A DNA stretch of 22,222 nt, taken from positions 1-22,222 of the IMG/VR virus record IMGVR_UViG_3300010354_000754; one strand, 5' to 3'. Numbering within the stretch: position 1 is the first letter of the stretch; every line of letters begins with the position of its first letter. Positions 29 to 22,023 of the stretch are shown piece by piece. This stretch comes from a virus. Both the position numbers and the translations under genes were made by a program. The notes below the pieces were generated by a model. The model saw nothing but the letters and a program-made list of their open reading frames with translations. It ran no database searches and was not told the DNA's origin.

Positions 29-370
29 TCAGCGCCGACCGCGGCGGATCACGCCGCGAATCTTGGCCTTGGAACGCTGCGCGCCAGGGTCGCCCATGGC
101 GCCGACGCGCTGGTTGCCCTCCTTGTTCCGCCACAGCCCTTCGTTCCGCTGCTTGGTGGCCTTCGTGCCGGAATAGAGCGCCTGGTTCTTACTCCGCAGC
201 CGACTACCGGTGCCGGTCAAACCTTTGCTCAGCAGCCGTTTGGTGGTCGCAGTGTTGGCCGAACGGGTGGAGCCAGACTTTGGCTTGCTGGCACTACCAC
301 CACCGCCGCCAGACCCGCCACCACCACCAGCGAAACGACCGCGGGAATCGCGCTTGTAGGTGCGGGCCAT
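29..370 (-). CDS. RGRFA-tagged small basic protein
   Basis: This 113-residue protein starts with MARTYKRDSRGRFA, the N-terminal tag shared with four other genes in the window. A glycine/serine linker follows (about residues 15-27), then a Lys/Arg-rich tail ending RRGRR with no recognisable enzyme domain. It is strongly basic, so binding to nucleic acid or to an acidic surface inside a particle is plausible; this is inference. The ATG is chosen because the tag begins exactly there and because CCGGAAACCT lies 34 nt upstream, as at its paralogues. There is no clear Shine-Dalgarno sequence. It lies 15 bp downstream of the next minus-strand gene and probably shares its transcript. It lacks the second conserved block (NRLTRDNAGRI...) found in three paralogues, so it is the minimal member of the family. 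Confidence 0.7.
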   Translation of the reverse strand: MARTYKRDSRGRFAGGGGGSGGGGGSASKPKSGSTRSANTATTKRLLSKGLTGTGSRLRSKNQALYSGTKATKQRNEGLWRNKEGNQRVGAMGDPGAQRSKAKIRGVIRRGRR

Positions 371-385
371 GAAACGTGCAGGGAG

Positions 386-1150
386 CTACCGCCTAGGTTT
401 CCGGTTGCGTCGCCGTTTCGGCGGGCCCTGCGTGTTTCTGGGGCCTGGCCGCAGGTTGTTCTTCCCGGCCTTCGGCTTGCCTTTGCCCATGTACGCCAGC
501 TGGTTGCCGTAGATCTCCCGGGCCCTCGCGGCTGGCTTGCTGCCACGCGCTGCAGCATCAGCAGCACGCTGCATTCGCCGCTGGATGGCCTTGGCGCCTG
601 GCCTGGTGCCGCTGATCCCGATCTCGACGCCAGCCAGCATCCGGTCAATCTTGTCTTTCCCGATCCGCTGCTGCATCGCCCTGGCGTTTTGGCGTTCCAG
701 CTGCCGCTTCATCGCGTCAATCCTTGGACGCTTGGACTTCACCGCATCGCTGAGCCGTTTCATCTCAGTATCAAGATCACGGACGGCGCGCTCAGCCTGG
801 CGATCCATTTGCCCCAGCCGCAGGCCAGGGGTCTTCGGGTTGAACGTCCGTACCGCACTGGCCTTGAGCGCCAGCGGCTGCCGCCTGTTCGCCCTGCCGC
901 TGGTGGGTCGCACCACGCTGCGAGCGCTGGGCCGGGGCAGGCCACCCGTGGGCCGGATCCCGTTCCCGCTGCCGGCCGCCCGGCGCCTGGTGCGGCTGAT
1001 CGTGCCAGCCGGCGCCGCTGCTCTGGTGGTGCTGCCCTTGGCTTGAGCACGACCTGGCGACCGCAGCCTGGAACCACGGCCACTGGTTTGGCCCTGATAC
1101 CCACCGCTGGCAAACCTGCCGCGTGCGTCTCGGACGTAGCGGCGGGCCAT
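386..1150 (-). CDS. RGRFA-tagged basic protein with helical middle region
   Basis: The protein has 254 residues and starts MARRYVRDARGRFASGG, a divergent copy of the family tag. Residues about 18-105 are low-complexity, rich in R, G, P and S. Residues about 110-175 are charged and probably helical or coiled-coil (RQAERAVRDLDTEMKRL and following). A later segment carries AIQRR...ARxIYxxQL, also present in the 440-residue paralogue at 4551-5873, so the two share a second module. The C-terminus is strongly basic (RNRKPRR). Its last codons overlap the CCGGAAACCT element serving the next gene. Its own start has a copy of the element 31 nt upstream and no Shine-Dalgarno sequence. I recognise no named family; the function is unknown. 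Confidence 0.7.
   Translation of the reverse strand: MARRYVRDARGRFASGGYQGQTSGRGSRLRSPGRAQAKGSTTRAAAPAGTISRTRRRAAGSGNGIRPTGGLPRPSARSVVRPTSGRANRRQPLALKASAVRTFNPKTPGLRLGQMDRQAERAVRDLDTEMKRLSDAVKSKRPRIDAMKRQLERQNARAMQQRIGKDKIDRMLAGVEIGISGTRPGAKAIQRRMQRAADAAARGSKPAARAREIYGNQLAYMGKGKPKAGKNNLRPGPRNTQGPPKRRRNRKPRR
395..404 (-). promoter_or_regulatory. CCGGAAACCT leader element upstream of gene 29-370
   Basis: Minus-strand CCGGAAACCT whose first base is 34 nt before the ATG at 370. It is embedded in the codons for the basic C-terminus (RNRKPRR) of the preceding gene, so the sequence is both coding and possibly regulatory. Confidence 0.6.
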
Positions 1151-1349: not shown

Positions 1350-2318
1350 TCAAGGGCCCCGGCGCACTCGGCTCCGGCGGCGAGCGGCGGGCTTCTGACT
1401 CAGGCCCTGTGCCTCGCGGTAGGCACCCATCACTTGGTAGTCGTATCGACGGCCGGTGCGCAGACCGGCATAGGTCTCGGCGATAAACTCGGCTGGGCTC
1501 GTTCGTGCATATCCGCTTACGCGACCTGCAAGGTTTCTGCGTCTCCATGATTCGCGCAGCTTGGATGCAGGGCCTCCGATGCCTGGTACTGCTTCCTTCC
1601 AATCGTCAATCCCTTTCTGGCCGCGCCGTTGGAAACGGGCTAGAGACGCCTTGTCTTTGGTGTGCTTGATCTCATGGTGGATCACGCCCATTGGAGATGA
1701 CGTTGAAAGATGCCCGCTTCTTCGGTATTCAATCGCTCTGAGCCTTGGGTTGCTCCAATACTCGGATGCTGTGTTGATTCCGATTGAGCGAACCCCTAGC
1801 AAGGCTTCGGCTATTCGCGGGTTATTTTTGTTGTTGAACTCGTAAACATTAAAGCCTTGTTTTTTGAGCCTTTTCACGGCTGTCGCAACGTTGTCCGCCG
1901 TATGACCGCTGAATCTGTTGTAAGGATTCTCCCCCTTCCTGAACCTGGCCATCGTGTTCACCGGCCGAGCGTTGGCGTTCATCAGCTCACCCGGCCGCAG
2001 CCTGCTGGTGGCTGCCGTCGCCCGGCCCTGCTGCACGTTCACCTTCGCCCGTGCGGCGCCGCTCCGGCTCACCACACCTTTCGGCGCAGCGTTCACTCGA
2101 TCGATCTGCCTGGCGCGCAAGTTCCAAGCTGCAGTCCGCAGCCGGCCGCCTCTGGCCGTTGCGCCGTTCCCGCCGACGCTGGTGATCCGCCCGGCATTGT
2201 CTCGAGTCAGCCGGTTCGTGCCCCTGCTCACCGGCTTGGCAGCAGGCCGCCCGCCACCGCTGGATCCACCGGTGCTGGCGAACCGGCCCCTGCTGTCGCG
2301 CTTGTAGGTCCTGGCCAT
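1350..2318 (-). CDS. RGRFA-tagged protein with zincin metallopeptidase-like C-terminal domain
   Basis: The 322-residue protein has three parts. Residues 1-14 are the tag MARTYKRDSRGRFA. Residues about 35-70 are a second shared block (NRLTRDNAGRITSVGGNGATARGGRL), also present in the proteins at 2929 and 4551. Residues about 125-300 form a distinct domain with HHEIKH at 214-219 (HEXXH, H215-E216-H219), followed by YARTSPAEFIAETYAGL, with Glu277 and Glu281 as candidate third zinc ligands. HEXXH followed by Y-x(n)-E-x-x-A-E is typical of zincin peptidases, including toxin-type ones carried by phages and polymorphic toxin systems. That makes it a candidate virion-borne protease. Substrate and activity are unknown. 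The C-terminus is basic (RRRSRVRRGP). The part encoding the catalytic domain is richer in A+T than the tag region, suggesting a separate origin. Confidence 0.75.
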   Translation of the reverse strand: MARTYKRDSRGRFASTGGSSGGGRPAAKPVSRGTNRLTRDNAGRITSVGGNGATARGGRLRTAAWNLRARQIDRVNAAPKGVVSRSGAARAKVNVQQGRATAATSRLRPGELMNANARPVNTMARFRKGENPYNRFSGHTADNVATAVKRLKKQGFNVYEFNNKNNPRIAEALLGVRSIGINTASEYWSNPRLRAIEYRRSGHLSTSSPMGVIHHEIKHTKDKASLARFQRRGQKGIDDWKEAVPGIGGPASKLRESWRRRNLAGRVSGYARTSPAEFIAETYAGLRTGRRYDYQVMGAYREAQGLSQKPAARRRSRVRRGP

Positions 2319-2337: not shown

Positions 2338-2348
2338 CTGGGTTGCCG
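2338..2348 (-). promoter_or_regulatory. Degenerate leader element upstream of metallopeptidase-like gene
   Basis: The minus strand reads CGGCAACCCAG followed by CAGATCAGGCGATGCTGGG and the ATG at 2318. The stretch resembles the leader of the gene at 2929 (CCGGAAACCTGCAGCAGTGA, then AGTGATGCTGCC, then GTG), so it is probably a diverged copy. Spacing to the start is 30 nt. Confidence 0.35.
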
Positions 2349-2368
2349 CTGAGCGTTATGCCGTGGCC

Positions 2369-2378
2369 CCGGAAACCT
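2369..2378 (+). promoter_or_regulatory. CCGGAAACCT leader element upstream of gene 2400-2894
   Basis: Plus-strand CCGGAAACCTGCAG, 31 nt before the ATG at 2400. It lies in the divergent gap between the minus-strand metallopeptidase-like gene and the first plus-strand neck-type gene, and helps to choose that start. Confidence 0.6.
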
Positions 2379-2399
2379 GCAGGCATCGCGCCCCGGTCC

Positions 2400-2894
2400 A
2401 TGCCTGCACCGATCCCAAACACGATCCCGCCATGGCGGAGTTCCGATCGTGAGCAGATCCGCGGATACAGCGGATGGCCGGTGTCAACCTACAATCTGAC
2501 GCAGCTCACCGCAGCGATGAACCGGGTGGCGGAGGCCTCAGCCGATGCCGTCACCCAGCTGCAGGCCTGGATCGATGAAGTCGAGACGCTGGAGCAGGAC
2601 TGGGCGGACAAGGTGTCAGACGGCACCGCCCACTTGGGCAACGTGCAGAGCTACGAAGGCCCGGCGCCTGGAACGGCCCTCAGCAAGGACGATCGGCAGA
2701 CCAAGGCCGACGTGCTCGAGTGGGATGCCTCCCTCCTGAAGGTCTCCTACCAAGCCGGCACCCGTGGTGATTCCACCGCTGGAGGCGTGCTGCACGCCCG
2801 GGTGTCGGAGCTGAAGGGGAAGATCCTGCAGGCGATCGGCATCAAGTCCTACGACGGTGGCGCCGGCAGCGGCGCGGCGTTGCTCAGGAGCTGA
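2400..2894 (+). CDS. Putative neck/head-tail adaptor-type structural protein
   Basis: The preferred reading is 164 residues from the ATG at 2400, placed 31 nt after a leader element as at the neighbours. A GTG at 2481 (starting STYNLTQLTAAMNRV) is the main alternative and would remove a Pro-rich N-terminus of doubtful coding character. The body is mostly helical (AMNRVAEASADAVTQLQAWIDEVETLEQ), then KADVLEWDASLLKVSY and a glycine-rich end. Location just before the HK97 gp10-like gene suggests a head-tail connector role, but no diagnostic motif was recognised, so the assignment rests on position. It is the first plus-strand gene after the divergent minus-strand block and could be the first gene of a plus-strand transcript. 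Confidence 0.55.
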   Translation: MPAPIPNTIPPWRSSDREQIRGYSGWPVSTYNLTQLTAAMNRVAEASADAVTQLQAWIDEVETLEQDWADKVSDGTAHLGNVQSYEGPAPGTALSKDDRQTKADVLEWDASLLKVSYQAGTRGDSTAGGVLHARVSELKGKILQAIGIKSYDGGAGSGAALLRS

Positions 2895-2928: not shown

Positions 2929-3579
2929 GTGGCCCGGACCTACAAGCGTGACTCTCGCGGGCGGTTTGCTGGTGGGGGCAGCAGCTCGGGTCGGCCGGCG
3001 GCGAAGAAAGCAGCGACCAGGGCAGGCAACCGCCTAACGCGGGACAACGCAGGCCGGATCAGCTCAATCGGCGGCAATGGCGCCACGGCTCGGGGTGGGC
3101 GGCTCAAGACGGCAGCTGGGAATCAGCGGGCGAGGCAGACGGCACGGCTGAAGAGTGCTGGCGGACGGTTGAGGGGCGGGAAAGGAGGCGGCGCCGCTGT
3201 TGCCAAGCGGGTCAGAAAGCCAGACCTCAGCCAAGCAGCGTTTGAGCGGCGCGCCAATCTGACTGAGAAGCGTGCGCGGGCTGCCGAGCGTGCAGTGGCA
3301 GGGGCTGACCGGGGCTACGCCAGCAGGGGTACGCGACGCATGTTCCGTACGGCTGATGCACTTCGATCTGCTGCTGATTCCTACAGCAGCTATGCCAGAA
3401 GGGGCAAAAAGGGAGAGTTCAGCGCCGCCGATTACTTTAATACAGACCGCAGAACCAGTAGGCGAACAACCGCGCCGAAGCTGAGCAGAGCCGAGAAGGC
3501 CAGGCGAACTAGAGCAGCCAACGCTGACAAGCGCTTCCGAGAGAACATTCGCCGGATGGAGGCGGATCGCCGCCGCTGA
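2929..3579 (+). CDS. RGRFA-tagged basic protein
   Basis: This 216-residue protein begins at GTG with MARTYKRDSRGRFA, then a short Gly/Ser linker and the second shared block NRLTRDNAGRISSIGGNGATARGGRL (about residues 34-59) followed by KTAAGNQRARQ. The remainder is Arg/Lys/Ala-rich and probably helical (SQAAFERRANLTEKRARAAER), ending in ENIRRMEADRRR. No catalytic motif is visible. It sits between two neck-type genes, and its TGA overlaps the ATG of the next gene (TGATG), so it is translationally linked to structural genes. The GTG is fixed by the family tag and by the leader element 32 nt upstream. DNA binding or packaging into the particle is a plausible role but not shown. Confidence 0.7.
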   Translation: MARTYKRDSRGRFAGGGSSSGRPAAKKAATRAGNRLTRDNAGRISSIGGNGATARGGRLKTAAGNQRARQTARLKSAGGRLRGGKGGGAAVAKRVRKPDLSQAAFERRANLTEKRARAAERAVAGADRGYASRGTRRMFRTADALRSAADSYSSYARRGKKGEFSAADYFNTDRRTSRRTTAPKLSRAEKARRTRAANADKRFRENIRRMEADRRR

Positions 3580-4052
3580 TGCCCACCGACTTCGCCCCCT
3601 ACGCGAACCTCCGCCTGCTGATCCCACAGCCGGCAGCGGCACCGGCCAACTTCCGCTCGGGCGTGCCGGCTAGCACCGCCAGCTGGATCCTGCACGTCTT
3701 CGCCAAGGGCACCACCACCGCCGCCCCGGGCACGCCGTCGATCGACCCGCGCACCCGCACCCTGGAGGGCTACATCACCGCCTTCGCCACGCTCCCGGCC
3801 AACACCTCCTGGCTGCAGGCCACCGCCGGCCTCGCCTGGGACACCACCGGCCTGGCACCCGCAGGCCTCCTGGCCGGTGCATCAGGCCGTGGGTTCCTCG
3901 GGGTGCTCGAATCACTCCCCACCGTCACCGGTCAGCAAGGCGAGGCCACGATCACCGCCCTCGGCGGCGCTTTTGGCCCTGGTGGCATCGGCGCTGAGCT
4001 CCGCGCCCAGCTGGGCGATGCGATCACCGTCGAGCTGCAGTTCGCCGGCTGA
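3579..4052 (+). CDS. Putative head-tail joining (neck) protein
   Basis: The protein has 157 residues starting MPTDFAPYANLRLLIPQP, rich in Ala, Gly, Thr and Pro with a beta-type pattern (TLEGYITAF, EATITALGGAF, DAITVELQFAG). Its ATG overlaps the stop of the upstream gene by one base, and it is followed three bases later by the HK97 gp10-like gene. A small beta-rich protein in this position of a siphovirus cluster is commonly a head-closure or stopper protein. I recognise no specific motif, so the role is inferred from position and size. Confidence 0.5.
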   Translation: MPTDFAPYANLRLLIPQPAAAPANFRSGVPASTASWILHVFAKGTTTAAPGTPSIDPRTRTLEGYITAFATLPANTSWLQATAGLAWDTTGLAPAGLLAGASGRGFLGVLESLPTVTGQQGEATITALGGAFGPGGIGAELRAQLGDAITVELQFAG

Positions 4053-4055
4053 GCC

Positions 4056-4517
4056 ATGTCGATCAACGTCCGCGTCAACACCGGCAACCTGCAGGCCCGC
4101 GCCCAGCAGGCGGCCCGCCGCGCCTCCGAAATCGTGATGGGGGAGCTGTTCGCCGCGTTCCAGCAGTCCTTCACGGCTAAGGCATGGGACTGGCCACGCA
4201 TCACTCAACGCACCGCCGGCAGCCCAGTCGGCAGCCCTCGCAACCTGATCGACACCGGCAACCTCCGCCAGACCGGCAGCTACCAGATGACCGGGCCCTA
4301 TCAGGCCACGTTCCGCTGGAGCGCCAACTACGCCACCGCTGTCCACGAAGGCGCCTACATCTACCCGTGGGGCAACCGTGACGCCGATCGGGTCTACCTC
4401 CCGCCACGCCCCTGGACCCGCGCCGTGCTCGGCCAGGAAGATGCACCCGGCGTGAAGCCCTACAACCTCGGCGATCGGCTCCAGAACGTCTGGCTCGCTC
4501 AGTTCCGCAGGCGGTGA
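4056..4517 (+). CDS. HK97 gp10-like neck/tail-completion protein
   Basis: This is a 153-residue protein. Residues about 1-45 are a helical start (NLQARAQQAARRASEIVMGEL), and the later stretch FRWSANYATAVHEGAYIYPWG carries YAxxVHEG, characteristic of the HK97 gp10-like / tail-completion families of head-tail connectors. It is followed by YLPPRPWTRAVL, equivalent to the usual 'RPFLxPA' segment. LIDTGNLRQTGSYQ matches the family's 'DTGxLRxS' motif. The length is normal. Such proteins sit at the head-tail junction and are needed to complete or attach the tail. It directly follows the putative head-closure gene. Confidence 0.8.
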   Translation: MSINVRVNTGNLQARAQQAARRASEIVMGELFAAFQQSFTAKAWDWPRITQRTAGSPVGSPRNLIDTGNLRQTGSYQMTGPYQATFRWSANYATAVHEGAYIYPWGNRDADRVYLPPRPWTRAVLGQEDAPGVKPYNLGDRLQNVWLAQFRRR

Positions 4518-4550: not shown

Positions 4551-5873
4551 ATGGCCCGGACTTACAAACGCGACAGCCGCGGGCGGTTTGCCTCGGGTGG
4601 TGGATCGGGCAGCGGCAGGCCGGCCACCAAGGGCCTGAGCACCGGAAAGAACCGCCTCACCCGTGACAACAGCGGCCGGATCACGGGCCAGGGTGGATCG
4701 GGCGCCACTGCACGCGGCGGCAGGCTGAAGACCGCTGCAGGGAACGCCAGGGCTCGGCAGGTCGGCCGGCTGAAGGGCGCACCGGCAGGCACCGTCAGCA
4801 GGGGCGGCAAGGCTAGGGGTGCGGCGCCGGTGGCGAAGGCCAAGACCGTCAAGCCCGCAGCCAGGGTCACCAAGAAGGCCGCAGCCGAGGCCAAGCTCGA
4901 TCGGGTGATCGCCAGGGCCCAAAACATCGGATTCCGCCGATTCGACAAGGAAGGTCGCAGCGAACGGGCAAGGAATGCAGTGCAGGTCGAGCGGCGGGCC
5001 AGGAACTGGATCAACATGCTTGGCACGAACACCAGAAAGCCGCCGAAGACGGTGGCAGAGATGAAGGCAAATGCGGCCAAGGTCATGGCTGACCGCAAGA
5101 AAGTGAAGGCAAAAGCAGAGATACAATCAACCAAATGGGCGATCAGTCGCTCTCGCGCACAACGGGCGCCGAAGTTTGATCAAACGGCAATTCAGCGGCG
5201 CAGGAATCGCGTAATTGAGGCCGACAAGCGCCGTGGCGGGATCTCCAACAATGCAACGATCGAAGCCAGGAATATCTACGACGCCCAGCTGCGCGGCCAG
5301 CTTCCAAAGCAGCGCGGCGCACTGCTCCCAGGCATGAAAGCCGCCGGCCAGAGGGCCCGCAACGCCAACGTGGTGCGTGGTGCAAAGCCCAAAGTCGGCG
5401 CTCCAAAGGGTGGAGCCGGAGCGCAGATCAGGGCCAGGGGCAAACGGGGAGGACAGCTCGCCGCACCGTCTGGGCCAAGCATGCGGCAACGGCTGCGTGC
5501 TGCAGCCAAGGTCAAGCTGAGCCCAATGCAGCGGTCTGAGGCCAAGTACGCCAAGCGCAAGTACGGGGTGAGCTCCACAGTGAGCAACCCTGGCCGGCCC
5601 TCTATGCGCCTTCCGCGCAGGACCACCTCAGGAGGCGCGCGGATTGCCGTGAGGGGGAACAAGGCCGCAACCACCAGGGCCTACAAGCAGCGTGTCTCCG
5701 CAACGCTCGGCAACACCCGCAAGACCGACATGGCCACCATGGGCATCGGTGGCGGCCTGCGCAAACTCTCCAACCCCCGCATCCGCAAGCAGCAGACCGG
5801 GATGACGCAGCTCAGCCTGGTGGGCCGCAACAAACCTCTCGTGCGCTTCCGCCCCGCCAACGGCCGCCGTTAA
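4551..5873 (+). CDS. Large RGRFA-tagged basic protein
   Basis: At 440 residues this is the longest of the five tagged proteins. It begins MARTYKRDSRGRFASGG, then the second shared block NRLTRDNSGRITGQGGSGATARGGRL (about residues 34-59). Residues about 60-200 are Lys/Arg/Ala-rich, probably helical. About residues 215-265 contain AIQRRRNR...EARNIYDAQL, the module shared with the protein at 386-1150. The rest is basic and rich in Gly, Ser and Pro, ending VRFRPANGRR. There is no catalytic motif and no membrane segment. It lies between the gp10-like neck gene and the tail-chaperone gene, where core siphovirus genes are usually adjacent, so it looks inserted. A packaged nucleic-acid-binding or ejected protein is a hypothesis. 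Confidence 0.7.
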   Translation: MARTYKRDSRGRFASGGGSGSGRPATKGLSTGKNRLTRDNSGRITGQGGSGATARGGRLKTAAGNARARQVGRLKGAPAGTVSRGGKARGAAPVAKAKTVKPAARVTKKAAAEAKLDRVIARAQNIGFRRFDKEGRSERARNAVQVERRARNWINMLGTNTRKPPKTVAEMKANAAKVMADRKKVKAKAEIQSTKWAISRSRAQRAPKFDQTAIQRRRNRVIEADKRRGGISNNATIEARNIYDAQLRGQLPKQRGALLPGMKAAGQRARNANVVRGAKPKVGAPKGGAGAQIRARGKRGGQLAAPSGPSMRQRLRAAAKVKLSPMQRSEAKYAKRKYGVSSTVSNPGRPSMRLPRRTTSGGARIAVRGNKAATTRAYKQRVSATLGNTRKTDMATMGIGGGLRKLSNPRIRKQQTGMTQLSLVGRNKPLVRFRPANGRR

Positions 5874-7415: not shown

Positions 7416-8255
7416 ATGTCTTCGGTCTATTCGCAGGCCTACGGCTACAACTTCTTCTTTCAGGTGCTCAAGAAAGGGTCGGTGAACCTTTCCGCCCTCC
7501 TGCCCAATGCCGGTCTGGGTGCCGGCAAATTCATCGACAACACCACGGTGCTGGCGAACACCTCCCTGGTGGTTCCCACTGGCACCGCCAGCACCTTCAA
7601 GCTGCTGGCCGGCGAAGGCAAGGTGGTCACCAAGGCCGCCATTGCCTCCAACGTTGCCACCCTGACCTTCGCCGCCGCCCCCGGCATCGCCAACGGCTCC
7701 ACCATCGCAGTGGCTGAGCTGCCAGCACCGTTTGAGGCGCTGAACGGCACCCGGGTGGTGACCGCCGTGACCACCTCGGCACCGTTCACCCTGTCCTTCG
7801 CACTCACCGCCGCGAACATCGCCGAGGCGACTGTCGCCAGCGGCCAGGTGGTCGGCACCTCCCTCCTGCTGGATGGCACCGACAACCCGGTTCGCCTGCT
7901 GGGCCTCACCAACTGCGCCCCGAGCGAGTCAGAGAACGAGGAGACCGTCACCACCTACGACGACGAGGCCAAGTCGTTCGATACCTCGATCGCCACTTCC
8001 AAATCGATGAGCTGGAGCCTGGAAGGCGTCACCAACCACAGCGACGCCGCCTACAAGCTCCTCCGAATCGCCGCCAAGGAGTCGGTGCGCGAGGGCCTGA
8101 TGGTCAAATACGCCCGGATTGGCCCCGTTGGCTTCAATGAAACCAGCTACGGCTACGGCCGCTTCACCGGTTTTGAGGAATCGCCTGCGGCTGGTGAGAT
8201 CGTGAAATACAGCACCACCCTTCGTGCTTACGGTCCCTACGAACTGGAATTCTGA
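7416..8255 (+). CDS. Major tail tube protein
   Basis: The protein has 279 residues from the ATG at 7416 (MSSVYSQAYGYNFFFQVLKK). The C-terminal half has the tail-tube look: TSIATSKSMSWSLEGVTNHSDAAYKLLRIAAKESVREGLMVKY, then GFEESPAAGEIVKYSTTLRAYGPYELEF, i.e. beta strands around one helix with a closing 'xxxYSxTLxxxGxxExE' strand. Residues about 30-145 are a Thr/Ala/Val-rich beta region that may be an inserted, surface-exposed domain. A GGAGG at 7391-7395 lies about 20 nt from this ATG, while an out-of-frame ATG at 7406 is closer. A TTG at 7371 would add 15 residues but is less likely. A terminator follows directly, consistent with the high expression expected of a tube protein. Confidence 0.75.
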   Translation: MSSVYSQAYGYNFFFQVLKKGSVNLSALLPNAGLGAGKFIDNTTVLANTSLVVPTGTASTFKLLAGEGKVVTKAAIASNVATLTFAAAPGIANGSTIAVAELPAPFEALNGTRVVTAVTTSAPFTLSFALTAANIAEATVASGQVVGTSLLLDGTDNPVRLLGLTNCAPSESENEETVTTYDDEAKSFDTSIATSKSMSWSLEGVTNHSDAAYKLLRIAAKESVREGLMVKYARIGPVGFNETSYGYGRFTGFEESPAAGEIVKYSTTLRAYGPYELEF

Positions 8256-8530
8256 GCTGGAGGAGATGGGGCCCCGGCTGCTTCGGCAGCTGGGGTTTTT
8301 TCTTGCCGTGGCAGCAGTGCTGCAGCCTGTTGCAGCGCAAATGCGCGATTGACGATCGCGTAATCGAGCACCTGATGGCTGATCTGCCGTAGCGCCTCCA
8401 GATCCCCAGGCCCCGCGCCATCAATCAGCGTGCGCCACTGGTTGAAGCGGAACTGTTCATGCAGCGGCAGTCCGTCCATTGGTGAGTGGCGTTTCGGGAG
8501 CTTGCCGGGCGCTTTGGAAACCTGAGCCAT
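8237..8530 (-). CDS. Small helical hypothetical protein, antisense to surrounding tail genes
   Basis: The minus-strand ATG at 8528-8530 opens 97 residues, MAQVSKAPGKLPKRHSPMDG..., with a helical core LHEQFRFNQWRTLI...LEALRQISHQVLDYAIVNRAFALQQAAALLP and an Ala/Pro-rich tail. An ATG at 8479 is an alternative start. It fills a 273-bp gap that has no plus-strand gene. Its first bases share CATG with the start of the plus-strand gene at 8529, so the two start codons overlap divergently. Its end overlaps the tube gene and the plus-strand terminator hairpin. The core is well balanced and reads like a real protein, but no family is recognised. It may be non-coding spacer. Confidence 0.4.
   Translation of the reverse strand: MAQVSKAPGKLPKRHSPMDGLPLHEQFRFNQWRTLIDGAGPGDLEALRQISHQVLDYAIVNRAFALQQAAALLPRQEKTPAAEAAGAPSPPAQNSSS
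8272..8301 (+). terminator. Intrinsic terminator after tail tube gene
   Basis: Stem CCCCGGCTGC (8272-8281) pairs with GCAGCTGGGG (8286-8295) through 10 pairs including one G-U, closed by a TTCG tetraloop and followed by six T (8296-8301). It lies 17 bp after the tube gene stop on the plus strand, where partial termination would separate tube expression from the downstream tape measure operon. Confidence 0.85.
8514..8523 (+). promoter_or_regulatory. TTGGAAACCT element at tail-terminator start
   Basis: Plus-strand TTGGAAACCTGAGCC lies only 15 nt before the ATG at 8529, unlike the 30-38 nt seen elsewhere, and is the last copy in the window. It matches the core and the CCTGAGC extension of the copies at 4518 and 1172. 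It may be a relic or act differently here. Confidence 0.4.
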
Positions 8531-8957
8531 GACCCTGCCCGCCACCGCTCAGGCGATCTACGACCGGCTGTTGGCTGATGCCACTATCGCCGCGGCGTTG
8601 GGCACCTACACCCTCGCCGATGGCACCAGCCGGCCAGCTATCGCCGTGCTCGCCGCCAACGAGAAGCTCCCCCCGGGCACGATCGCCGAGGGCATTGAGC
8701 TGGTGATCACCGCGGTGCCGGGCTTCGCCAACCGTGCGCTGCTCACCACCGAGAGCCTGCCCAACCCCACCTGGCGGGTCTACGTGATGGGCTGGCAGTC
8801 CGCCGCGCAGCTGCAGGTCGTCGCGCAGCGCGTGCTGGCCCTGCTGCCCGGCGCATCGGCCACGCCCGTCCCTGGTGACGCGCCCGGTGATGGCATCGGC
8901 GTGATCGATCAGCTGGCGATCACCTGGACCAATCCCACCGTGGTGGTGACCCCATGA
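8529..8957 (+). CDS. Tail terminator-like protein
   Basis: The protein has 142 residues: a first helix and short turn (AQAIYDRLLADATIAAALGTYTLADGTSRPAIAVLA), central strands (GIELVITAVPGF, TWRVYVMGWQ), a helix (AAQLQVVAQRVLALLPGA) and a last strand (GVIDQLAITWTN). This order and the R-V-Y-x-x-G-W strand followed by the 'xxVxxRVxxLL' helix match small tail-terminator/minor tail proteins (gpU-like fold). Such proteins cap the tail tube at its head-proximal end. Its stop overlaps the tape measure ATG (ATGA), indicating translational coupling. Confidence 0.6.
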   Translation: MTLPATAQAIYDRLLADATIAAALGTYTLADGTSRPAIAVLAANEKLPPGTIAEGIELVITAVPGFANRALLTTESLPNPTWRVYVMGWQSAAQLQVVAQRVLALLPGASATPVPGDAPGDGIGVIDQLAITWTNPTVVVTP

Positions 8958-11900
8958 GCGACTTTCAGGTTCAGGTCGGCGGCGATTTCTCCGAACTGCT
9001 CCGCGGGTTCCAGCAGCTGGAGGCCCGTGCGCAACAGTCCGGCAATGCCGTGGGCAAGGGCCTTGCCGATGGCATCCAGGGGTTCAGCAGCAAATCCATC
9101 GCCGCGCTCCAGTCCGAGCTCAGCCGCCTTGAGCAACGTCAGGTCAAGGTGGCGGTGGACTCCACCGCCTTTGAGAAGACCGGCAAGCGGATCACTGAAA
9201 TCAAGGCGCTCATTGCCGAGATTGAGCGCCGCCGGCTCACCGTTGGCGTTGACGACCGATCCATCACCGCGCTGCAGTCCAAGCTCGCGCAGTTGCAGTC
9301 CAAGCAGACACGGCTCGCGGTTGACTCGCGCGAATTTGCCGATGCGCAGAGTGAGATCAACGCGCTGGAGAAGGAGCTCAACGATGTCAGCCGCCGCAAG
9401 CTCCTGATCAACGCTGACCCGTCCAGCTTGATCGCCCTGCAGGCCAAACTCGGCGATCTGCAGGGCGAGCTGGGCCGCGTTGCAATCGGCAGCCAGCGAT
9501 TCCAAGAGCTCACCACCGCCATCCAGGCTGCCGAGCGCGAACTCTCAAGGGCCGGCGAATCCGCTGATCAGTTCCGCATCCTGGATGGCGTGGTGCAGGG
9601 CATCGCCTTCAGCCTCTCCAATTCGGTGGTGGACGGTGCTCAGCGGGCCCTTTCTGCGCTTGGCGGTGTCGTTGCTGAGTTTGGCCGGCTTGATACCGAG
9701 CTGCGCAAGGCGGCTGCCGCCAGCGGCGAGGCCGGCGCCTATGAATCCCTCGCCAGGTCCGTTGATCAGGTCGGCATCGAGGCGGCCGGCACCACCTTGG
9801 AAGTGGCGCAGCTCAACACCGAGCTGATCCGCGGCGGCCTCACCGTGGATCAGGCCAATGCCAGCCTCGCGGCGATCGTCCGCGGCGCAGAGGCCACCGG
9901 CACCAGTTTTGCCGCCTTCGGTTCGGTGGTGTCCGCCAGCCTCAAGTCCTTCGGCCTCGAAGCAAGGGACGCCCAGCGGGTGGTCGATGCCCTCGTGACC
10001 GGCGCCAACGCATCGGCCGCCAGCGCTGAGGGGCTTGGGCTGGCATTCAAATACGCCGCACCGGTGGCAAAGCTGCTCGGCGTTTCCATCGAAGACCTGG
10101 CGCTCGCCGCCGGCCTGCTCACCAACGCCGGCATCGATGCCTCCGAAGCTGGCGTCACCCTGCGAAATGGCTTTTCAAAGCTCGCCAGCGCTGCGCCCAA
10201 GGCTGGTGGGGCGATGCAAGACCTCACGGGTCAATCAGCGATGGCCGCCAAGGCGATGCGGTCGCTTGGGGTGGACATCTACAACACCGATGGAACCCTC
10301 AAGCCGATGGAGACCACCCTCCTTCAGCTGAAGGGGGCATTTGAGAAGCTCGACCCGGCATCGAAGATCCGGCTGGCGGCAAACCTCTTCGGCGGGGAAG
10401 ACGACGGCGCCAAGTGGCTGGCGTTGCTCAACCAGAGCGAGGCCGAAATTCGGCGCATGGCACAGACCATGGCCAACACCAAGGGTGCAGCCGATGTCGC
10501 ACGTGATGCGATGACGGGCTTTGAGCTCAAGCTCAAGCAGCTCGATGGCACAGTCGGCAGCCTTGCAATCACCTTCGGCTCAGTCGCAGCCGGCGCGCTG
10601 ATCCCGTTTGTCGATGCGGCAAACACCATCGTCGGCGCCATCACGGGCCTGCCCGGGCCGGTGAAAACCCTCGGCGCTGGCATGGTGCTGCTCACCGGCG
10701 CCACCGTTGCGGCGACTGCAGCGCAGATCGCCTTCACCCGGGCACTGCAGGCCGAGGCCGTGCAGGGCGCCATCAGCGCCGTTGGGGCCTTTGCCGGCGC
10801 GCTCCGCACCCAGTTGGCGGGGGCGCTGTCGGTGGCGGCCGTGGGATTCAGCACCCTGGCGACAGCGATCAAGGGATTCAGCGCACAATCGTTCTTCGCC
10901 TCGATCGCACAGCTCGCTGCTGCCATCCGAACGCAGCTGGCAGGCGCCGCCACGGTGGCGATCACAGCATTCAGCGCCCTTGCGCAATCCATCAAATCCG
11001 GCGCATTCGCCTCAGCACTTCAAAACCTGATCGGCCAGGTCGGATTGGTGACCGCTGGCATTGCTCGATTCGCCGCAACTGTCGGGCCCATTGCTCTGGT
11101 GGTCGGCATCGTTGCTAAGGCCATGGAAGGCGGCGCCGAGGCAGGGGAGCGATACAAGGCAGCCAACGACACGATCAGCGAAGCGCTCGTCAAGCTGCGT
11201 GATGAGCTGGGCAAGACCGACATCAAGCTCGCCGACAGCCGCAACGCAATCCAGAAGCTCTGGGATTCGTTTGGCGAAGGGGCTCGCGTCATCGGCGACA
11301 TTGACGCCACCAACAAGATCACGGAGTCGATCGCCAAGCTCAACCAGGAAGCCAGCGGCTACTTGGGCACGATCAAGCAGACCGGATCGCTCACTGATGA
11401 GCAGCGGTCGAAGTCCCTGGCCTTTGTCGCCGCACTCCAGAGCAGTAGCGGAGCTGTTCAGCAACTGGTCAAGGAATATGAGACCCTCGCCAGCAAGGCT
11501 GCACTGATCGGCGACGATCGCCAGGCGGAGGTCTACCGCGAAGCGGCAACGCTGCTCCAGCAGCAGGCCAATGCCGCCAACAACACCTCGGCGGCGCTGT
11601 CCAAGAAGGCACAGATCACAAACCAAGACATCGTGGCCACCGGCAAGGCCACCGAAGTGACCAAGGCACAGGCCGATGCCGAAAAGCAGCTGGCTGATGT
11701 CATCCGAACGCAACCCGTTCGCAACTTGGATGCGCAGTTGACCGCTGGGCAGTCGCTGCTTGGGCTGACGCAAGCGCTGTCAGAGCAAGAGCAATCGCGC
11801 TTCGCAGTAACAAAAGCTGGAATTGAGTATGAACTAAGCCAAGCAGAAAAACGCAAGGCATCAGAATCCACGATTCGGCGAATTAAAGACGAACTTAACA

Positions 11901-13279
11901 AGGTTGAGATTGCAGCTCTCCGCGCTCGCTACGGTTCACTTCAGCAAGAACAGGCATTGCAGCGTGAATTGCTCAAGCTCAGCCAAGAAAAAGCACGCCT
12001 AGAGTCAAACCTGGCCGTGCAAGAGCAGAACATTGCCGTGCTCAAAGCTGCCCAGCAGCTTCAGCAATCCATCAACGGCGGCAAGCAGGCTGAAATCAAC
12101 GCCGCACGCGCCAACCTTGACCTGCAGACCGCAATCCTCGGCACCCGCTACGAATCGGCAGGGCTGCTCAGCCGCACGCAGGAGCTCGAAAACCGTGTCC
12201 TTACAGCTCAGCAGGCAGCCGCGGAGAATACAGCCCGCGCAGCTCTGGCGCAGAAAGGAATTACGGCTGAGCTGCAGTCTTCGGCCGGCTATTCCACCCA
12301 GCTGGTGGGAACCACCGCGAGCATCGCCAGCAACGCTCAGGAATATGCAGCGGAAGCCCGCCGGGCTGCCGAACAGCAGGCCGGAATCGCTACCGCTGCG
12401 CAGCAGGCCAGCACGCAAACAGCTCAAGCTGCAGGCAATGCCAGGGCACTCGCAAGCAACACCACGGACGGTGTTCGCAAGACCACCGAGCTGGCCAATT
12501 CAGCAGGCCAAGCGAAGGGCAGCCTTGATGGCGCCAGCAAGGCTGCCGGAGGCGTTAAGGCTGAGCTGGGCGGCGCCACGGAGGCTGCAGCCAAGGCCGC
12601 CGCTGAAGCCGGAAAGGTCGGCGCCAGTGCCGCCGACAGCGCCAATCGGGCACGGCCGCTGGTGGAGGCTCTCGATAGCGCTGGCGCCAATGCCCAGGAG
12701 ATTGCTACCGCCCGGATGGCGGCCAACCTCAGCGCAGCGTCAGGATCGGCCGGCGGCCTCAGAAACGCCATGGCCGCGGCAGCAGGTGCCGCCCGCACCT
12801 TCTACGAGTGGCTGGCGAAAGCGTCAGGTCTCCCCGGCAGCCGCTGGACTGGTGGCCCGGTTGAAGCTGGCCAAACCGTGCGAATCAACGACGGCCCGGC
12901 CGGCCGGAGCCTGGGCCAGGAGTCGTTTCTTACCGCCGCGGGCAAACTCAGCCTGATCAACCGCCCTGCCAATTCGCTCTGGACGCCACCAACCAGCGGC
13001 GTGGTGATCCCTGCAGGCGTGACCGAGCAGCTGAAGGCTCGAGGTGCGTTTGATGCCAGCCGTGCGGCACGCGCTGCGGTTGCCAGTCGTTCCGCCAGCC
13101 CATTGGCAGGGGGGAGTGAAGGAGAGCTGGCTGCCAACCTTGCTCGGCAGGCCCTTGCGATCGGCAAGCTGCAGCAGAGCGTGGACCAGCTCGTGGAGAA
13201 AGACTGGAATGTGCAACTCCGCGTTCGCAGTGACGCCAACGGCCCCTCGTACCTGAACACCCTGAACAGGATGCTGTAG
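8954..13279 (+). CDS. Tape measure protein
   Basis: At 1441 residues this is the longest gene here and sets tail length. Residues about 48-205 are three ~55-residue repeats starting S-x-x-ALQ-x-x-L (positions 48, 103, 158). Residues about 215-500 match the tail tape measure core domain (PhageMin_Tail / TP901 type), with GTTLEVAQLNTELIRGGLTVDQANASLAAI and LGLAFKYAAPVAKLLGVSIEDLALAAGLLTNAGIDASEAGVTLRNGF. Residues about 555-725 are hydrophobic and contain an internal 41-residue duplication (ALRTQLAGA / AIRTQLAGA), as expected for a part that meets the host membrane. Residues about 770-1270 are long Ala/Gln/Lys-rich coiled coil. The C-terminus (about 1290-1441) is a distinct, more globular region. 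It starts by ATGA overlap with the tail terminator gene. Confidence 0.95.
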   Translation: MSDFQVQVGGDFSELLRGFQQLEARAQQSGNAVGKGLADGIQGFSSKSIAALQSELSRLEQRQVKVAVDSTAFEKTGKRITEIKALIAEIERRRLTVGVDDRSITALQSKLAQLQSKQTRLAVDSREFADAQSEINALEKELNDVSRRKLLINADPSSLIALQAKLGDLQGELGRVAIGSQRFQELTTAIQAAERELSRAGESADQFRILDGVVQGIAFSLSNSVVDGAQRALSALGGVVAEFGRLDTELRKAAAASGEAGAYESLARSVDQVGIEAAGTTLEVAQLNTELIRGGLTVDQANASLAAIVRGAEATGTSFAAFGSVVSASLKSFGLEARDAQRVVDALVTGANASAASAEGLGLAFKYAAPVAKLLGVSIEDLALAAGLLTNAGIDASEAGVTLRNGFSKLASAAPKAGGAMQDLTGQSAMAAKAMRSLGVDIYNTDGTLKPMETTLLQLKGAFEKLDPASKIRLAANLFGGEDDGAKWLALLNQSEAEIRRMAQTMANTKGAADVARDAMTGFELKLKQLDGTVGSLAITFGSVAAGALIPFVDAANTIVGAITGLPGPVKTLGAGMVLLTGATVAATAAQIAFTRALQAEAVQGAISAVGAFAGALRTQLAGALSVAAVGFSTLATAIKGFSAQSFFASIAQLAAAIRTQLAGAATVAITAFSALAQSIKSGAFASALQNLIGQVGLVTAGIARFAATVGPIALVVGIVAKAMEGGAEAGERYKAANDTISEALVKLRDELGKTDIKLADSRNAIQKLWDSFGEGARVIGDIDATNKITESIAKLNQEASGYLGTIKQTGSLTDEQRSKSLAFVAALQSSSGAVQQLVKEYETLASKAALIGDDRQAEVYREAATLLQQQANAANNTSAALSKKAQITNQDIVATGKATEVTKAQADAEKQLADVIRTQPVRNLDAQLTAGQSLLGLTQALSEQEQSRFAVTKAGIEYELSQAEKRKASESTIRRIKDELNKVEIAALRARYGSLQQEQALQRELLKLSQEKARLESNLAVQEQNIAVLKAAQQLQQSINGGKQAEINAARANLDLQTAILGTRYESAGLLSRTQELENRVLTAQQAAAENTARAALAQKGITAELQSSAGYSTQLVGTTASIASNAQEYAAEARRAAEQQAGIATAAQQASTQTAQAAGNARALASNTTDGVRKTTELANSAGQAKGSLDGASKAAGGVKAELGGATEAAAKAAAEAGKVGASAADSANRARPLVEALDSAGANAQEIATARMAANLSAASGSAGGLRNAMAAAAGAARTFYEWLAKASGLPGSRWTGGPVEAGQTVRINDGPAGRSLGQESFLTAAGKLSLINRPANSLWTPPTSGVVIPAGVTEQLKARGAFDASRAARAAVASRSASPLAGGSEGELAANLARQALAIGKLQQSVDQLVEKDWNVQLRVRSDANGPSYLNTLNRML

Positions 13280-13282
13280 GCC

Positions 13283-14029
13283 ATGGCCGTCACCATTGGA
13301 ACCCTGACGGTCTCCCATCTGCGGGCTCAACCGCTGGGATACAGCGAAACAGACACGATCAAAGGACTGGTCGCTCGCCGGTGGTCAGTAGAAGGCCTGG
13401 TGAGGCCTTCGGAATGGTTGGCGCTGCTGCAGATCTTTGAATCGTGGCGCCAGGCCAGGCGCGAGGATCCAGACTCCCTGGTGGCGCTGAGCACTGGCAG
13501 CACCGTTGCGTTCAGCGGCAGCGCTGCTGGCTACAGCTGGTCCAACGTCCCCTGTTGGTTCACGGCAGCACCAGCAGGGGAAGCGATCGGCGCATATATC
13601 GGCATCAGTGTTGAGCTGGTGGATGCGGCGCAGCAGCTCGCGGCATGGGTGCGGCAGCAGGAGCAGCAAGTTGAGATCGAGGAGGATTCGCGCCCGGCCT
13701 ACGGCACCATCACGCTGGGGCAAGCAACGCTGACGTTGACTGAACAGCCAGACGGCTATGCCGAAGGGCCAGCATTGCAGCGCACCGCATCTGGAAAAAC
13801 CTGGATCAATGGGCCGCTTGGCGTCATCAAGGCCAAGCGAATCACCGGTTACACCACCACCAGCGGGTGGACAGCACTGCGGCAGTGGTATGAGGGGATT
13901 ACATCGACAGCTCCAATCCAAGGGCAGTATTATCCCGTACAGCCACCAACCATGACGAAAGAAATCGTCTTGGTTGATGGCATCAAAACCACTCGATGCG
14001 TGGTTCAGCTGGAGCTGTGGGAGGCCTAA
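13283..14029 (+). CDS. Distal tail protein-like, duplicated domain
   Basis: The protein has 248 residues and begins three bases after the tape measure stop, the usual place for a distal tail protein joining the tube to the baseplate/tip. It looks like two copies of one fold. The N-terminal half is IGTLTVSHLRAQPLGYSETDTIKGLVARRWSVEGLVRPSEWLALLQIFESW. The C-terminal half is LGQATLTLTEQPDGYAEGPALQRTASGKTWINGPLGVIKAKRITGYTTTSGWTALRQWYEGI. Each ends with strands giving V-E-L or V-Q-L-E-L. The halves are joined by a Gln/Glu-rich stretch (QQEQQVEIEED). There is no catalytic motif. The role is assigned from synteny and two-domain beta architecture. Confidence 0.55.
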   Translation: MAVTIGTLTVSHLRAQPLGYSETDTIKGLVARRWSVEGLVRPSEWLALLQIFESWRQARREDPDSLVALSTGSTVAFSGSAAGYSWSNVPCWFTAAPAGEAIGAYIGISVELVDAAQQLAAWVRQQEQQVEIEEDSRPAYGTITLGQATLTLTEQPDGYAEGPALQRTASGKTWINGPLGVIKAKRITGYTTTSGWTALRQWYEGITSTAPIQGQYYPVQPPTMTKEIVLVDGIKTTRCVVQLELWEA

Positions 14030-20201: not shown

Positions 20202-21008
20202 ATGCGCTTCAAGTTCCCCACCATCCGCCAGGAACTCCTGGCCCAGTTCCAGTACACCGCAGACCAGGATCCCCCGGGCGATTTCGACGCTGGTGGCAGC
20301 TCTGATCAAAGCGAACCCTCCCCTGGTGGGGAGGCTGACCCCAACGAAGGGCTCAAACGTGCTCTGGAGGCAGAACGCAGGCTGAACCGCCAGAACGCTG
20401 CCCGCGCCGCCCAACTCGAGGCGCAGCTCAAGGAAGTGGGCCAGGTGGATCCGAAGCTGCTGGCCGAAGCCCAGGCCAAGGCCGAGGCCGCCGAGCAGCA
20501 AAAACAACTGCTGGAGCAGCAGATCAACAACCGCTTGGCCGACGCCGAGCGGAAGTATCAGGAGCAGCTTGGTCGCCTCACCAATGAGCTGCAGAGCAAG
20601 GCATCAGCTGCCGAACGCGAGGCTTTGCGGGTAAAGACCGAACGCGAGTTTCTCGCTGCCAAGGGCCTGATGGAGGCCTCCACCATCGACGGCCGCACGC
20701 CGTTCGACTACATCTGGCAGCTCTACGGCAACCAGTTCGCCGAAGATCGCAACGGGCTGTTCCTCGCTGACGCAGACGGCAGCCCCAGGCTTGACGAGGA
20801 AACCGGCAAACGGATCACGCCCGCTGAATTCTTCGCCAAGCTCCGCAAAGACCCGGTGCATGGGATGCACTTTCAGCCGGAATACGGCTCGGGTTCTGGT
20901 GCCCGTGGCGGCCGTGATGGGCGGGTGAACAACACCGCTGACCTGTCGAAGGTGCCCACTTCGCAGCTGTTCCGCGAGACGTTCGGAGCCAAACGCCGAA
21001 CGGCTTAA
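20202..21008 (+). CDS. Putative capsid scaffolding protein
   Basis: The protein has 268 residues. Residues about 20-50 are acidic and disordered (DPPGDFDAGGSSDQSEPSPGGEADP). Residues about 50-160 are a long charged coiled coil (LKRALEAERRLNRQNAARAAQLEAQL, AQAKAEAAEQQKQLLEQQI). A compact segment follows (TPFDYIWQLYGNQFAED), and the C-terminus is basic (FRETFGAKRRTA). A disordered acidic start, a coiled-coil middle and a basic C-terminal tail is the classic plan of tailed-phage scaffolds, and the gene sits directly before the major capsid gene. No separate maturation protease is visible in the window. Confidence 0.65.
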   Translation: MRFKFPTIRQELLAQFQYTADQDPPGDFDAGGSSDQSEPSPGGEADPNEGLKRALEAERRLNRQNAARAAQLEAQLKEVGQVDPKLLAEAQAKAEAAEQQKQLLEQQINNRLADAERKYQEQLGRLTNELQSKASAAEREALRVKTEREFLAAKGLMEASTIDGRTPFDYIWQLYGNQFAEDRNGLFLADADGSPRLDEETGKRITPAEFFAKLRKDPVHGMHFQPEYGSGSGARGGRDGRVNNTADLSKVPTSQLFRETFGAKRRTA

Positions 21009-21099: not shown

Positions 21100-22023
21100 A
21101 TGGGCCTGACCCTTCTGGAGGCGGCCAAATCCGAACGTGATCCGGCTCGCCTCGCCGTTATTCGTGAACTCGCTGAAGGCGAGCTGATGCGCGTGATCCC
21201 CTTCCAAGATGTGGAAGGTGAGGGCGTGTTCTACGACGTTGAGCAGGAACTTCCCTCCGTGGGATTCCGTGGCATCAACGAAACACTCGATGCCTCCTAT
21301 GGCGTGCTCAACCCTCAATCCGAACGCCTGAAGGTGCTCGGTGCTGAGGTCGATGTGGATACTTCCATCATCGACATGCGCGGCCCCGACGTGGTGGGCG
21401 ATCAAGTGCGCATGAAGGTCACTTCCATGCGGATGACCTTTGAAGACCACTTCATCAACGGCGACGAATCCGCCAACCCTCGCGCCTTTGATGGCCTCAA
21501 GCGCCGGATCAACGCCGGCAGCTCCCAGGCGATCAACATGAACAACGGTGCGCTGTCGTTGTCGGCGCTGGATGAGCTGATCGACGCCGTGGACGCCATG
21601 GGCGGCCAGAAGGTGCTGATCATGAACAAGAAGATGCGCCGCCGGCTGAATACCGCCAGCCGGGCCACCAGCATCGGCGGGTTCATCAACTACGAGCTCG
21701 ACAGCTTCGGCCGCCGGGTGACGCAGTACGGGGATGTGCCCATCATCGTGACCGACGTGAACGCCCAGAACCAGCCGGTTCAGCCGTTCACCGAAACCAG
21801 CTCCAGCACTTCGATCTACTGCGTGGCGCTGGGTGATCTGCTCACCACCGCGATCCAAGGCCGTGCCCGCGGTCAATTCGGGATCTCGGTGCGGGCTCTG
21901 GGCGAGGTGCCTGATGCGCCGGTCGATCGCACCCGCATTGAGTGGTATTGCGGCATGGCCATTTACAACGGCCGTTCTGCATCCCGCCTCTATGGCGTGA
22001 CCGATGCGGCCGTGGTCGCCTGA
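21100..22023 (+). CDS. Major capsid protein (HK97-fold)
   Basis: The protein has 307 residues, beginning MGLTLLEAAKSERDPARLAVIRELAEGELMRVIPF. The N-terminal pattern (TLLEAAK ... I-x-x-x-A ... VIPF) is followed by VFYDVEQELPSVGFRGINETLDASYGVLNPQSERLKVLGAEVDVD, typical of one family of HK97-fold capsid proteins. DELIDAVDAMGGQKVLIMNKKMRRRL and DVPIIVTDVNAQ match the P-domain region. RIEWYCGMAIYNGRSASRLYGV is the closing A-domain/axial strand pattern. It lacks an obvious cleaved prodomain, so assembly probably relies on the separate scaffold gene upstream. No Shine-Dalgarno sequence is clear at the ATG; the structured leader lies immediately upstream. Confidence 0.88.
   Translation: MGLTLLEAAKSERDPARLAVIRELAEGELMRVIPFQDVEGEGVFYDVEQELPSVGFRGINETLDASYGVLNPQSERLKVLGAEVDVDTSIIDMRGPDVVGDQVRMKVTSMRMTFEDHFINGDESANPRAFDGLKRRINAGSSQAINMNNGALSLSALDELIDAVDAMGGQKVLIMNKKMRRRLNTASRATSIGGFINYELDSFGRRVTQYGDVPIIVTDVNAQNQPVQPFTETSSSTSIYCVALGDLLTTAIQGRARGQFGISVRALGEVPDAPVDRTRIEWYCGMAIYNGRSASRLYGVTDAAVVA

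Follow-up and report, generated by a model that had tools for sequence, protein, structure and literature searches.

The tagged gene and its neighborhood

The window studied here, a complete IMG/VR record of 22,222 bases that is classed as linear (a class that often denotes a fragment), carries a gene for a protein in which a short N-terminal tag and a long linker precede a predicted zincin domain (Table 1). The initial annotation had placed a reading frame at 1350-2318, and the frame exists, with the minus strand as the coding one, the plus-strand reading of the same interval being broken by 6 stops. The two sequence elements on which the zincin proposal was built, HHEIKH at residues 214-219 and YARTSPAEFIAETYAGL at residues 270-286, are both found at these positions in the translation.

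The major capsid protein (MCP) of the window matches phrog_212 in PHROGs (E 6e-72) and has Cyanophage PSS2 as its top phage match (46.7%), and the scaffold protein matches solely the Synechococcus phages S-CBS2 and S-CRES1-3. Judging from these matches, a cyanobacterial host is therefore likely for this phage. One of the two genes presumed to belong to the head-tail joining region, at 4056-4517, gave a weak PHROG match to tail completion/Neck1 (E 0.17).

Gene order in related contigs places the tagged zincin within the head-gene cluster. MuF is its direct neighbor in G001 and G010, and in G009 one exonuclease gene separates the two; the portal lies upstream in G009 and G010, and homologues of the window genes starting at 2343, 3579 and 4056 lie downstream in all three. 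In L050, the tagged zincin comes directly after a MuF-like gene. The order is less similar in G012 and G002, and within the G002 record MuF is far off. In the zincin-free relatives L011, L014, L020 and L040, the same interval is filled by genes in which the tag precedes a different C-terminus.

Three tagged genes of the window, that of the zincin included, are oriented against the structural genes, and so are some of the tagged genes in G001, L011, L020 and L040. Such an orientation would fit late or lysogenic accessory (moron) genes that lie among the head genes and whose products are not virion proteins. We regard this as very improbable, since a common tag implies a common destination and since fusions of the zincin to portal, MuF and minor-capsid proteins put the domain in the head of other phages.

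Table 1. Coordinates of the features of the window
Feature	Position	Strand	Remarks
Tagged zincin protein, 322 aa	1350..2318 (stop codon included)	-	Full-length homologues in L005 and others
N-terminal tag, residues 1-14, MARTYKRDSRGRFA	2277..2318	-	Common to 5 window ORFs
Second basic block, residues 36-63, RLTRDNAGRI..GATARGGRLRTA	2130..2213	-	Also in the 2929 and 4551 paralogues
Gly/Ser/Ala/Arg-rich linker, residues 15-130 including second block, predicted disordered	1929..2276	-	Low pLDDT
Folded zincin domain, residues 131-305	1404..1928	-	AF2 models; 58-sequence alignment
HExxH, residues 215-219 (His ligands H215 and H219, catalytic E216, predicted)	1662..1676	-	Invariant in 58/58 and 73/73
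Tyr270, seven residues N-terminal of Glu277	1509..1511	-	Tyr in 72/73 homologues
Glu277, most likely third zinc ligand	1488..1490	-	Invariant; Y-x6-E spacing, also in 4l7a
Glu281, second conserved acid of EFxAE	1476..1478	-	Invariant, partly built in by scan pattern
Tagged paralogue, 113 aa, other C-terminus	29..370	-	No Pfam match
Tagged paralogue, 254 aa, other C-terminus	386..1150	-	C-terminus clusters with tagged proteins of L024, L033 and L040
Tagged paralogue, 216 aa, other C-terminus	2929..3579	+	No Pfam match
Tagged paralogue, 440 aa, other C-terminus	4551..5873	+	No significant Pfam match
Conserved head-cluster gene, beside zincin gene	2343..2894	+	Homologue comes after MuF/tag genes in relatives
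Two conserved genes, presumed head-tail joining region	3579..4052; 4056..4517	+	Synteny in G001, G009 and G010
Head scaffolding protein	20202..21008	+	Matches to Synechococcus phage scaffolds
Major capsid protein	21100..22023	+	phrog_212; PSS2 match

Conservation and predicted fold of the zincin domain

Searches of Pfam, PHROGs, NCBIfam and PDB sequences gave nothing usable for the window protein, two of its homologues had no match in PHROGs, and tblastn against 50,697 phage records returned no relative of the window zincin and, with the L005 homologue as the query, one record alone at E 4. Relatives were gathered by degenerate-pattern scans and confirmed by tblastn, a step that favors similar sequences. 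The HExxH motif was never among the scan patterns and is nevertheless retained in all 73 related ORFs, so its presence is not due to chance; the motif is thus kept in the homologues, where its loss would have spoken against the assignment. A tyrosine seven residues before the distal glutamate is found in 72 of the 73, the exception being L065. Nine columns are invariant in an alignment of 58 sequences (H215, E216, H219, A271, E277, F278, A280, E281 and G289), although the conservation of E277 and E281 is partly built in, as EF[IVA]AE was one of the scan patterns. Purifying selection on the zincin is strong: of 11 pairs compared, the 9 with a finite dS had dN/dS values of 0.042-0.184, with 0.042-0.104 in the six close pairs (≥84% identity) and values up to 0.184 in the other three.

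The structure model agrees with this picture, and motif, selection and model together back the zincin assignment of the initial annotation. The domain is folded with confidence in the AF2 prediction (mean pLDDT 86.4, pTM 0.82). In the full-length model, residues 131-305 are folded and residues 1-130 mostly have a pLDDT below 50 (block means of 31-47 for residues 11-130); HExxH lies within helix 211-221, and E277 and E281 lie within the confident helix 275-287. The nearest folds are M34 peptidases, at modest scores. Foldseek against the PDB gave no match at E≤0.001, with 5d1t appearing weakly at E 0.42. In VIA-align, rows 1 to 24 were all lethal-factor chains, the best with Z 5.8 over 139 aligned residues at an rmsd of 5.0, a modest value under the level that the tool treats as clear, and lethal factor or PPEP accounted for 44 of the 50 rows listed, which are redundant. 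The PPEP rows had Z of about 3.8-4.5, and Y178 and E143 of PPEP-1 appear in the titles of some. Among viral predicted structures (BFVD), the best matches were phage proteins named "Minor capsid protein" and "Lethal factor" (E 2.6e-4 to 2.3e-3).

A family profile run against PDB sequences had a single match below E 0.01, 4l7a (E 3.1e-4), in which HEFAH and YAGSKPSEDIAEV align with HExxH and Y-x6-E-x3-E. This is an uncharacterized bacterial protein, which we take to be from B. ovatus and Peptidase_Mx-like, and it differs from the window protein in having no phage context. Weak Pfam matches among the 58 family members were to M91 (9 members), Peptidase_Mx (8) and ATLF (4, the best at E 0.0029).

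M34 peptidases have a tyrosine seven residues ahead of the ligand glutamate. With the catalytic domain of lethal factor and PPEP-1/2/3, which make up the comparison with MEROPS M34 (ATLF, PF07737) and rank nearest in VIA-align, the window zincin shares HExxH and the Y-x6-E spacing, but it lacks a Pfam ATLF match, which is found weakly in only 4 of the 58 members, and it has a phage-head context and a tag. We read it as an M34-like gluzincin without filing it in M34. H215, H219 and, most likely, E277 would bind the zinc, with E216 as the general base and Y270 as the transition-state tyrosine.

ArdC also appeared in VIA-align, at Z 4.1, and all 77 distinct tagged proteins described below have a pI above 10.7. 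Both observations would suit a protein without proteolytic activity that uses the zincin fold to bind DNA or a defense protein in an ArdC-like, anti-restriction role, the basic tag perhaps binding DNA. We consider such a role improbable given that the catalytic residues are fully kept under strong purifying selection and that M34 peptidases reach scores equal to or higher than that of ArdC.

A shared tag in front of exchangeable proteins

Five window ORFs begin with the tag, MAR.Y.RD.RGRFA, and three of these (those at 1350, 2929 and 4551) also have the second block, RLTRDN.GRI..GATARGGRL, so that of the earlier claim that the paralogues carry the same tag and second block, the part on the tag stands for all five and the part on the block for three. 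Against its own record, the zincin protein matched the ORFs at 4551 (E 7.7e-33), 2929 (E 1.1e-22) and 29-370 (E 4e-8), in each case through their N-terminal parts, and Pfam assigned no named domain to its tagged paralogues in the window. The scanned loci contain 137 tagged ORFs, of which 77 have distinct C-termini, and R3, Y5, R7, D8, G11 and F13 of the tag are invariant in these 77. A tag query against the 50,697 phage records found none, and the tag was not found in the stretches examined of PSS2, S-CBS2 and S-CRES1. We also considered the tag as a mark of structural proteins (portal, MuF or capsid) and rejected this; in a scan of the ORFs of 22 sequences for RD..G[RQK][FY], small basic proteins had the motif close to their N-terminus, and a few matches lay elsewhere (for example, L053:2384-3004).

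What follows the tag is replaced even between nearly identical tags. Between L008 and L009, nucleotides 1-369 agree at 97.8%, and beyond them no match is left; for L009 and L021, a stretch of about 640 nucleotides has 98.6% identity and what follows is unrelated. The zincin carriers L050 and L069 agree at 94% along the tag, with a middle part that differs. In 11 of 12 genes, the zincin part has a lower fourfold-site GC than the tag part (p<0.03 in 7, uncorrected), with L079 lower only nominally and L026 reversed (p 0.044); in the window, the other four tagged genes have no significant difference. This exchange of cargo behind a constant start is the pattern of polymorphic toxins; no immunity gene was noticed.

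Few of the cargoes can be named. PARP/ART-like segments occur in 2 of the 77 distinct tagged proteins, those of L050 and L070, at 17.3 and 22.6 bits against a cutoff of 26.7, and a J-domain occurs in one (DnaJ, E 3.8e-6, 27.3 bits against a cutoff of 27.8). Most cargoes are without a recognizable domain, and the reading of the tagged proteins as effectors therefore depends on a few members. When the parts beyond residue 100 were clustered, one component took in 34 of 70 sequences, and because this component may be held together by the shared linker, we give no count of cargo families.

Several further features were seen among the tagged proteins. The J-domain is C-terminal in L053:10635-11669, which directly follows a tagged zincin and could be a delivered cochaperone. 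The C-terminus of 386-1150 (..YGNQLAYMGKGKP...N.LRPGPRNTQGPPK..) recurs in tagged proteins of L011, L024, L033, L037 and L040, and a motif resembling LR.GLR.LAQSDAR is present twice per protein in several cargoes (L014, L020, L024 and L040). In the unrelated phage L064, three tandem zincin genes (8030-8908, 8911-9747 and 9752-10546) have a short N-terminal tag of their own,.GTR(S/T).G.GR.G, that is also found on 12847-13356, an ORF that looks ART-like by eye only and has no Pfam match; the cluster lies between terminase-like and portal-like ORFs.

In L050 and L070, the zincin is C-terminal to the ART-like segment in one chain. Because of this arrangement, some probability remains for a releasing peptidase, in which the zincin would free its own chain or neighboring tagged proteins from the tag and linker, in the head or just after delivery. 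The long linker, predicted to be disordered, would suit such a cut, and release of this kind has been proposed for the metallopeptidases (MPTases) of polyvalent proteins in the accessible part of PMC5512222. The chain in the window consists of tag and zincin alone, and a releaser acting in trans would be expected wherever the tag is found, but the zincin was undetected in 17 of 17 tag-bearing contigs (several of which are fragments), while the same query found it in 13 of 13 carriers. On balance, we think release unlikely, while taking it more seriously than the anti-restriction role.

Fusions of the zincin to head proteins and its possible role

The same domain is joined to head proteins in other phages, and in most of the 73 zincin ORFs it lies near the C-terminus. 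Twenty-two of these ORFs are tagged, 18 are fusions to lambda-type portals and 3 to other portals; fusions to MuF (4), DUF2213 (3), XkdF (1) and Phage_min_cap2 (1, from a Phycisphaerales MAG) were also found, and the remaining 21, L116 among them, are stand-alone, truncated or unassigned. The partners were named by Pfam in 20 chosen ORFs and the other members were assigned by blastp; L095, counted among the MuF carriers, scores under the Phage_Mu_F cutoff (25.8 versus 29.6). Uncultured phages thus have portals of three Pfam families whose C-terminal part carries the zincin. We take fusion to several unrelated head proteins as the best evidence that the domain may act in or from the phage head. 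The initial annotation had suggested a virion protein, and for this part of its proposal the support is indirect, coming from these fusions to portal, MuF, minor-capsid and head-protease-type proteins and from the position beside MuF, between portal and neck.

Portal fusions were seen in L098, L099, L101, L102, L105, L109, L110 and others, as well as in L086, L119 and L125. The DUF2213 proteins (L089:2681-4942, L090 and L091), for which we assume a head-protease role, have two HExxH motifs, one in the zincin domain and the other about 270 residues downstream. L116:8084-10381 combines ADPrib_exo_Tox (ADP-ribosyltransferase exoenzyme, E 1.5e-8) and the zincin in one ORF.

Maturation of the particle had been offered as an alternative function, and the distribution of the domain disfavors it. 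A zincin that replaced the usual serine prohead protease would be in keeping with the fusions to portal and to protease-type proteins (XkdF and DUF2213) and with the rarity of known prohead-protease families, S78 being found in 1 of 33 records and S49 and ClpP in none, but these three families, the only ones surveyed, do not span all prohead proteases. Four of the 17 zincin-free tag-bearing contigs yielded an MCP, with 71%, 63%, 55% and about 50% identity to that of the window; these close capsid relatives are G039, G042, G006 and G037, whose contigs may be incomplete. MuF was found in the nine longest of the 17, all nine that were searched for it. The zincin was likewise undetected in the whole records of the cultured relatives PSS2, S-CBS2 and S-CRES1. 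The zincin gene also runs opposite to the structural genes, being on the minus strand, and the window has a separate scaffold gene, as do phages that need no proteolysis, of which SPP1 is an example. We therefore have strong doubts about a maturation protease. Because relatives with 71% and 63% identical MCPs do without it, the zincin is, judging by this distribution, an accessory enzyme, and a core role in maturation is unlikely.

Our preferred reading, to which we lean somewhat, is that the protein is an active zinc protease and a swappable cargo that is directed to the head by its tag and probably delivered into the host. In this reading, a short address tag comes first and a flexible basic linker tethers the protease to it; the tag probably brings the protein into the procapsid close to the portal/MuF complex. 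A few copies would be packaged with the DNA and delivered along with it, and the protease would then cut at least one host protein early in infection. As with polymorphic toxins, the 5' tag would stay constant, and the protease would be one among several cargoes that can be exchanged behind it. We put even weight for and against the broader proposal of a new polymorphic virion-cargo system of cyanophage-like siphoviruses, in which a tag of about 14 residues (MAR.Y.RD..GRFA) and the linker would load interchangeable proteins, among them the zinc protease and ART-like and J-domain proteins, near the portal and MuF for delivery to the host, the unrelated phage L064 having evolved a short tag of its own.

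Three known systems resemble this proposal. In temperate phages, MuF polymorphic toxins join a constant head-associated part to a C-terminal enzyme that varies, and of 191 such proteins, 20% have a metallopeptidase domain and 14% an ART domain according to the accessible text of Jamet et al. (2017, PMC5576092). The constant part here is instead a tag of about 14 residues with a linker; Pfam found no Phage_Mu_F domain in the window zincin protein, and MuF is a separate neighboring gene in the relatives. A second comparison is with T4, where we take Alt to be a carrier of the capsid targeting sequence (CTS). The internal proteins of T4 are diverse and share only this conserved short sequence that targets them into the head, as described in the portion of PMC3012670 available. 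The 77 distinct tagged proteins likewise have a common short N-terminal sequence, but the tag is unrelated to the CTS, and a search for S78, S49 and ClpP found no prohead protease that would remove it. By analogy, the tagged system would work like MuF toxins and T4 CTS proteins with a different and very short constant part, without MuF or a known CTS.

Polyvalent proteins are the third comparison. Iyer et al. (2017, PMC5512222, available part) described zincin MPTases in these proteins, which are thought to be packaged, with ART and zincin domains as partners, and also reported PBECR and 2H domains fused to MuF and portal. Zincins in presumably packaged phage proteins and the pairing of ART and zincin are common to both systems, but the window zincin has no match to MPTase-PolyVal or another polyvalent family, and small tagged proteins stand here against giant multidomain ones. 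Lethal-factor-like metallopeptidases are among the polymorphic-toxin domains listed in a 2012 paper (PMC3482391, in part). A literature search on the tag system and the portal-zincin fusion, which covered few subscription papers, led to MuF toxins, polyvalent proteins and the T4 CTS and to no description of this tag, and the available part of a jumbo-phage survey (PMC7824862) has nothing specific to the tag system.

If the proposal is true, the tag, which nature has attached to dozens of proteins that are unrelated to one another, would offer a loading signal open to direct testing, and its cargoes would already list proteins active during the first minutes of cyanobacterial infection. The zinc protease is the clearest enzyme among them and can be tested in vitro. 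In unrelated phages, this one zincin family has repeatedly been joined to portals, to MuF and to proteins of the head-protease type, and the target of a head-borne protease therefore becomes a testable question.
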